A stretch of 64,000 nucleotides of DNA, from assembly GCF_011765465.1 (NCBI RefSeq), contig NZ_CP050265.1, forward strand, positions 2,137,501-2,201,500. Direction: 5' to 3'. Origin of the DNA: Erythrobacter sp. (GTDB lineage: Bacteria; Pseudomonadota; Alphaproteobacteria; Sphingomonadales; Sphingomonadaceae). This document shows positions 53,860-54,161 of this stretch, piece after piece (the first letter of the stretch is position 1; each line of letters starts with the position of its first letter). A program made the position numbers and the translations under genes. The notes beneath the pieces were generated by a model, which saw only the letters and a program-made list of their open reading frames with translations, made no database searches and was not told the DNA's origin.

Positions 53860-54161
53860 CGGCGGACGGATTGACGCAGAGGATGGTGATGGCTACCACG
53901 CCCGCCATGCATCGGATCGTGACCAACCTCCACCGATATCGCAGCGCCCGCTGACGGCGCGCCTTCCCGCGCGCCTGCATGGCGTGCGATCAGCCTTCGA
54001 TCTGGTCCACGGCTTGCCTTTCCACCGGGAGGGTAAAGCCAGTAGTTCTGGCAATCGGACTGTAAATCCGATCCCCGCGAGGGGGAGTGGAGCGTAACCA
54101 CACCCTCCCACCATCTTTTCCAAACGCGCCCTTAACCTTCGCCGCGCTATCCCCCCGCGCG
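53860..54161. other. Region between the MoaB-type gene and the deacetylase
   Basis: 302 bp. It contains the tRNA-Tyr-like sequence at 54027-54113 and a weak promoter-like pair (TTGACG at 53871, 17 bp, TACCAC at 53894) that might serve it. No protein gene is seen. Confidence 0.5.
54027..54113 (+). tRNA. tRNA-Tyr-like gene (GTA anticodon) with atypical D and T loops
   Basis: 87 nt including encoded CCA. Acceptor arm GGGAGGG pairs perfectly with CCCTCCC, discriminator A. Anticodon arm TCGGA/TCCGA is a perfect 5-bp stem with loop CTGTAAA and anticodon GTA. A class II variable arm CCCC/GGGG is present. But the D loop lacks the GG pair and its stem is only three G-C pairs (GCC/GGC), and the T loop reads AGCGTAA on a GTGG/CCAC stem, not TTCxANx. 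So the usual D-T contact is missing. Could be a tRNA-like or a divergent tRNA-Tyr. The ACCA end favours a real tRNA-like transcript. Confidence 0.6.

Follow-up and report, generated by a model that had tools for sequence, protein, structure and literature searches.

The stretch of Erythrobacter sp. DNA analysed here (the window; 64,000 nucleotides of contig NZ_CP050265.1) contains a sequence that looks like a tRNA-Tyr gene with abnormal D and T loops. Is it a working tRNA and, if so, what purpose could such a form serve? An earlier note, made from the letters alone, had suggested an RNA under divergent selection, a tRNA-like RNA with another job or a pseudogene kept by chance. We describe the element as follows.

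54027 to 54113, plus strand: non-canonical 8/4 tRNA-Tyr(GUA) with encoded CCA, identified by a match to the family model R2 and by covariation

Much of the earlier description stands, namely the acceptor strands GGGAGGG/CCCTCCC, the anticodon loop CTGTAAA, the encoded CCA, the D loop without GG and the T loop AGCGTAA. The D stem, previously read as three pairs, has five (GCCAG/CTGGC) closing a 5-nt loop, and covariation in relatives backs this pairing. The anticodon stem has 6 bp (AUCGGA/UCCGAU). The seven acceptor pairs seen earlier are there, but an acceptor of 8 bp (with U8:A65), leaving a T stem of 4 bp, fits better. The folding energy of −43.4 kcal/mol (versus −28.3 kcal/mol for shuffles; z −4.4) was equalled by none of 200 shuffles, and R2 matches the element with 103.9 bits (E 6e-19), its sole match within the window. 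The tyrosine-type features are the anticodon GUA, A73 and G1:C72; G1:C72 and A73 are identity bases for TyrRS.

Scanned with standard models, as the earlier note had advised, the element goes unseen: ARAGORN does not detect it, and the Rfam tRNA model (RF00005) gives no match even at E 10, the sequence staying below the gathering score. A second, canonical tRNA-Tyr(GTA), which that note had wanted looked for, is present elsewhere in the genome on the minus strand (G000:C1:1562460-1562545; L027), so the element is an extra gene and not the sole tRNA-Tyr. Ordinary bacterial tRNA-Tyr (RF00005; L027) shares with it GUA, A73, G1:C72 and the extra variable arm, but its D stem has 3 bp and a long loop, and its T loop is TTCGAAT. 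The identity of the element as an additional tRNA-Tyr is well supported, and it would be expected to be charged by the host TyrRS and to decode UAU and UAC.

The tRNA is the last part of an inserted segment.

53860 to 54119, plus strand: the whole inserted module (borders approximate), with an empty site in genome G026 and the module present in genome G403

The insert extends from just past the stop of the upstream gene to about 6 nt beyond the CCA. The window and G403, from two species of the genus, carry it at the same place, 3′ of a gene whose product has domains MoCF_biosynth and FLAD1_M; the two copies are syntenic and co-oriented. In the close relative G026 (L260), whose upstream protein is 96% identical, only 18 nt stand in place of the module. 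Between the window and G403 the tRNA is 95% identical and the flanks are 77% and 69% identical, in agreement with the earlier idea of an unusual tRNA-Tyr selected in its own right. None of the four substitutions in the tRNA breaks the structure, and two of them make a compensatory pair in the variable arm. Together with covariation in the D stem and the 18:55 coupling described below, this pair supplies the compensatory changes that had been proposed as a check. A decaying tRNA pseudogene would be overlooked by standard tRNA finders, as the element is, and one family member in G071 (L106:9753-9835), with intact internal arms, a broken acceptor end and no CCA, is probably decaying. We nevertheless give this explanation hardly any credence: the window's copy has perfect helices, an encoded CCA, compensatory changes and conservation above that of its flanks, and its substitution pattern refutes chance retention. 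The element is a genuine gene under selection. As a separate observation, the same genome has an intact tRNA-Arg(CCG) and, about 4 kb off on the same strand, a broken partial copy of it (G000:C1:2616538-2620719; L009, L073); the pair probably marks the ends of a small integrated island.

A plain nucleotide search with the window's copy in 60 relatives, phages and plasmids found no relatives. A covariance model made from the single sequence revealed clear homologues in four other genomes of the bacterial family, scoring 61–113 bits versus 30–40 for ordinary tRNA-Tyr, and a second model, built from five sequences, recovered more members. Within the genus the element is present in 4 of the 114 genomes searched (110 are without a copy). 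A T-arm pattern hit 17 contigs in IMG/VR, 16 with a full-length family member and one with a truncated one, while a D-arm/anticodon pattern matched at least 120 viral contigs and, among the matches listed, nearly all score as members. The latter pattern yielded 14 matches among 84,980 bacterial and archaeal species; seven score as members, all of them in Sphingomonadales, where they are scattered. The matches in Mucilaginibacter, Pyrinomonadaceae, Chlamydiales, Hyphomonadaceae, Chitinophagaceae, Marinagarivorans and one gammaproteobacterium fail the model score and are taken to be chance. The element belongs to a tRNA family overlooked by standard tools, of which we found no published description.

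The 74 distinct members that we parsed, most of which belong to phage tRNA arrays, follow one scheme. The 5′ strand of the seven acceptor pairs is followed by base 8 and AAA; next come the D arm (5-bp stem, 5-nt loop), a single base and an anticodon stem of 6 bp (the sixth position paired in most members). A variable arm of 9–15 nt and base 49 lead to the T arm (4-bp stem, 7-nt loop), after which base 65, the 3′ strand of the seven pairs and NCCA complete the molecule. The anticodon is GUA in 74 of 74, A73 is found in 73 and G1:C72 in 70. Positions 8 and 65 are U:A in 61 members, A:U in one, C:G in one and G·A in 10, and 49:65 is almost never paired; the 8/4 reading is supported because position 8 pairs with 65.

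The same alignment (in which one member, L206, is mis-registered) bears on the claim that the D–T elbow is missing. The element has A18:G55, G19:C56 and A54/U58 instead of the canonical G18:U55, G19:C56 and U54:A58. Across the family 18:55 is G:U in 51 of 74 members and A:G in 21, the two sides covarying strictly; the two exceptions are L163, apparently recombinant, and L171, which has an aberrant T loop. The 19:56 pair is G:C in 73 of 74. The 18:55 coupling rules out a lost elbow. Members from phages L02, RcXuper, Phosso and Cellulophaga have a fully canonical T loop TTCGA, and some phage members have the complete canonical elbow set. Since such members exist, the type found in the window looks derived, its elbow altered or rebuilt and not lost. 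On the best tree made without the loops, a limited test, 18:55 switches 13 times (only three changes fall on supported branches), always on both sides together, and the supported changes all have the same direction. The coupled swap thus offers a natural experiment on the tRNA elbow. In L163 (L163:7794-7879, a viral contig) another tRNA seems to have supplied the T arm and acceptor of the 3′ half, an apparent case of tRNA-gene recombination.

A 2020 review of non-canonical tRNAs lists 8/4 tRNAs of Sec, Cys and Ser/Ala identity (PMC7609411), and on that basis no Tyr member is known; the family adds tyrosine to a small set. With the selC* tRNA-Cys and allo-tRNAs it shares the 8/4 acceptor/T branch, the longer anticodon stem and the sporadic occurrence as extra bacterial genes (PMC7609411). 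It differs from them in being of Tyr type (GUA, A73) and not of Ser, Ala or Cys type, and in its five-nt D loop, its 18:55 swap and its abundance in phage arrays. No selB or extra synthetase was seen adjoining the element.

In viruses the setting is distinctive. Of the 61 distinct viral members, 55 have three or more further tRNA genes (median 12) within 6 kb; another recognised tRNA-Tyr is nearby in only six, and ARAGORN detects one of the 61. The array setting and the rarity of another tRNA-Tyr therefore make the element, in most cases, the tyrosine tRNA of the phage set, and a gene so overlooked helps to account for the seeming lack of tRNA-Tyr in many phage tRNA sets. Among named phages, the gene is carried by Erythrobacter phage vB_EliS-L02, Rhodobacter phage RcXuper, Sinorhizobium phage Phosso and Cellulophaga phages of the phi38:1/Calle group. 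None of the records of named phages that we checked annotates it as tRNA-Tyr; in Calle_1 the match shares part of its span with an annotated tRNA-Ser. Three further arrangements were observed. In vB_EliS-L02 an ARAGORN-predicted tmRNA gene ends the tRNA array (L131:5430-5838); in RcXuper the element lies directly 5′ of an annotated ordinary tRNA-Tyr, so that the two types adjoin (L132:3996-4172). A six-gene array (Ser, Ser, Leu, element, Leu, Ile) in Sphingopyxis sp. JAI128 (L112:1241-1760, L140) and L121 recurs on a 46.9-kb viral contig and is probably a prophage tRNA array.

The idea of a special job, raised by the earlier note, we keep in the form of a possible reserve tRNA-Tyr; a tRNA-like RNA active outside elongation, for example one that donates tyrosine in peptide or cell-wall chemistry or serves tRNA-Tyr nucleases as a decoy, strikes us as highly improbable. 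The altered elbow and the rarity of the element among hosts would suit such a role, and phage tRNA-Tyr has been discussed as decoy or supplement (PMC13096335). A non-decoding donor would however be free to vary its anticodon, whereas GUA is invariant in the 74 members; within phage tRNA sets the element takes the place of tRNA-Tyr, and at the chromosomal sites we saw no genes for peptide synthesis linked to it.

Lone chromosomal copies (11 loci, at about eight different sites among ordinary genes) form a module of about 250 bp, made of a TTGAC box, a leader ORF, three mutually exclusive hairpins and the tRNA. In the window its first parts are:

53871 to 53876, plus strand: TTGACG, proposed −35 box, from the recurrence of TTGAC in the lone-copy loci
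53894 to 53899, plus strand: TACCAC, proposed −10 region, placed by spacing only (17-nt spacer)
53907 to 53954, plus strand: leader ORF, ATGCATCGG...CGCTGA, encoding the peptide MHRIVTNLHRYRSAR, recognised from the peptides of relatives, indels in threes and the leader model R3

TTGAC occurs 36–39 nt 5′ of the leader ATG in 11 of 11 lone-copy loci, against a chance expectation of about 0.7% per locus; a generic promoter scan did not score the proposed −35 box TTGACG. From this spacing we infer that transcription starts at or close to the leader ATG. An ORF of 14–16 codons, starting 118–166 nt upstream of the tRNA, is found at all 11 loci; peptides of relatives include MHNIVTNLHRYPYAA, MNRIAASSYYYLVG, MANRSIRFEYYYPAN and MNMQVRHSYRYYRVI. 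Tyr codons lie in its later half, usually as YYY or YRYY, with only one in the window and, at the other ten loci, two or three among 14–15 codons (two in G403). Indels within the ORF come in threes, and the first indel of another kind follows the stop. Examined alike, L105 (beside a small tRNA cluster) and the degenerate L106 have no leader. R3, built without the loci of the window and G403, has the window's leader as its only match at E≤1e-3 across all 3.3 Mb of the genome; the score is no higher than that of chance matches in other genomes, so that the evidence is the position of the match and not its score.

Around the leader stop, four segments can pair in competing ways:

53944 to 53948, plus strand: putative attenuator segment 1, GCGCC, pairing with segment 2
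53956 to 53962, plus strand: putative attenuator segment 2, GGCGCGC, right after the leader stop, pairing with segment 1 or 3
53968 to 53975, plus strand: putative attenuator segment 3, CGCGCGCC, pairing with segment 2 or 4
53981 to 53988, plus strand: putative attenuator segment 4, GGCGTGCG, pairing with segment 3, with no U tract after it

The competing helices 1:2, 2:3 and 3:4 are matched by at most 2 of 300 dinucleotide shuffles in 9 of 11 loci (L141 and L143 do not beat the shuffles), and the window and G403 build them with letters unlike those of the other loci. We folded the free RNA after masking the footprint of a ribosome. For the window, helix 2:3 has P 1.00 with the ribosome at the Tyr codon and helix 3:4 has P 0.99 with the ribosome at the stop. 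The same switch is computed in 8 of 11 loci, the window included; L141, L146 and L123 do not switch. No intrinsic terminator (hairpin with U tract) was found between the window's leader and the tRNA, and hairpin 3:4 is not a standard one because no U tract follows it. An attenuator is supported by sequence, and its trigger would be the supply of charged tRNA-Tyr; transcription of the module and the direction of the switch are predicted likewise.

One could also read the tRNA as a constitutive, phage-derived accessory tRNA-Tyr serving dosage or codon supply only, with the leader region as mere 5′ flank or processing signal. In its favour, the phage copies examined sit in large tRNA arrays with no leader apparent, and the tRNA is preceded by no intrinsic terminator. 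We regard this reading as unlikely, given that the Tyr leader, the TTGAC box and the competing helices recur at about eight unrelated chromosomal sites, always before the element, that the genome is already served by one ordinary tRNA-Tyr and that no copy turned up in 110 of the 114 genomes of the genus that were searched. As the phage-array copies appear leaderless, a reserve role would cover the chromosomal copies only.

Building on the tRNA identity, family, structure, module, leader ORF and competing helices documented by comparison above, we think it quite probable that the element is a functional phage-type reserve tRNA-Tyr, attenuated by its leader and induced by shortage of tRNA-Tyr, with a fold that evades the loss of tRNA-Tyr. 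An 8/4 tRNA-Tyr of a phage-borne structural class would have been captured by some Sphingomonadales as the module of about 250 bp, in which a promoter precedes a leader ORF of very few codons, those for Tyr lying towards its end, and after this the three competing hairpins and the tRNA. With charged tRNA-Tyr in good supply, the ribosome would reach the leader stop, hairpin 3:4 would form and less transcription would read through into the tRNA; when tRNA-Tyr is short, the ribosome would stall at the Tyr codon, hairpin 2:3 would form and the reserve tRNA would be made, be charged by the host TyrRS and read UAU and UAC. The odd fold probably escapes whatever removes ordinary tRNA-Tyr, for example the anti-phage nucleases Septu and retron PtuAB, which cleave it.

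Such losses are documented. Retron-Eco7 depletes the tRNA-Tyr of the host, and infection is restored by that of the phage (PMC11555353); Septu cleaves the variable loop of tRNA-Tyr, and the T5 tRNA-Tyr withstands retron-Eco7 by virtue of its own variable loop (PMC13096335). Phage tRNA-Tyr counters both systems (PMC11555353, PMC13096335). The tRNA-Tyr genes of T5, SP15 and T6 resemble the element in being phage-borne, and that of T5 in resisting cleavage through a distinctive variable loop; we found no statement of an 8/4 fold for them in these reports (PMC11555353, PMC13096335). Phage vB_EliS-L02 has a gene for an RNA ligase close to its array of tRNAs. With these defences and this ligase in view, evasion of cleavage is the likeliest reason for the fold in phages; the family would then resist the nucleases, and the chromosomal module may be a back-up against the same damage. 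In its full form, a leader that gauges charged tRNA-Tyr through its Tyr codons and, when this fails, lets the cell make a disguised phage-derived tRNA-Tyr that the destroyer of the ordinary one does not recognise, we hold the proposal only tentatively, at somewhat less than even chances. If true, it would give the host a tRNA back-up circuit against immunity systems or toxins that cleave tRNAs.

The proposed leader resembles the trp and his leaders and Sinorhizobium trpL in its short ORF with codons of the regulated amino acid and in helices 1:2, 2:3 and 3:4; it differs from amino-acid attenuators in that the regulated gene is a tRNA and that no U tract follows 3:4 (PMC7298713). We found no attenuated tRNA genes in the part of the literature covered, an absence that is weak evidence. 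If the leader works as read, it would be the first case known to us of a tRNA gene attenuated by its own codons and would allow a direct test of how tRNA loss is sensed and repaired.

Weak R3 matches in other genomes (20–34 bits), as far as inspected, were mostly due to chance, lying in coding sequence with no element adjoining. The exception is L297:1501-1690 (G498, Sphingomonadales), where a Tyr-Tyr-Tyr leader peptide, MTNRVASTAYYYPATVGMS, precedes a terminator hairpin that has a T tract, and behind this lies a Biopterin_H gene, which codes for an aromatic amino acid hydroxylase. This is apparently a tyrosine attenuator of a tyrosine-making enzyme; a Tyr leader with a true terminator, found likewise in Sphingomonadales, suggests that such leaders are in use in this group for tyrosine supply.
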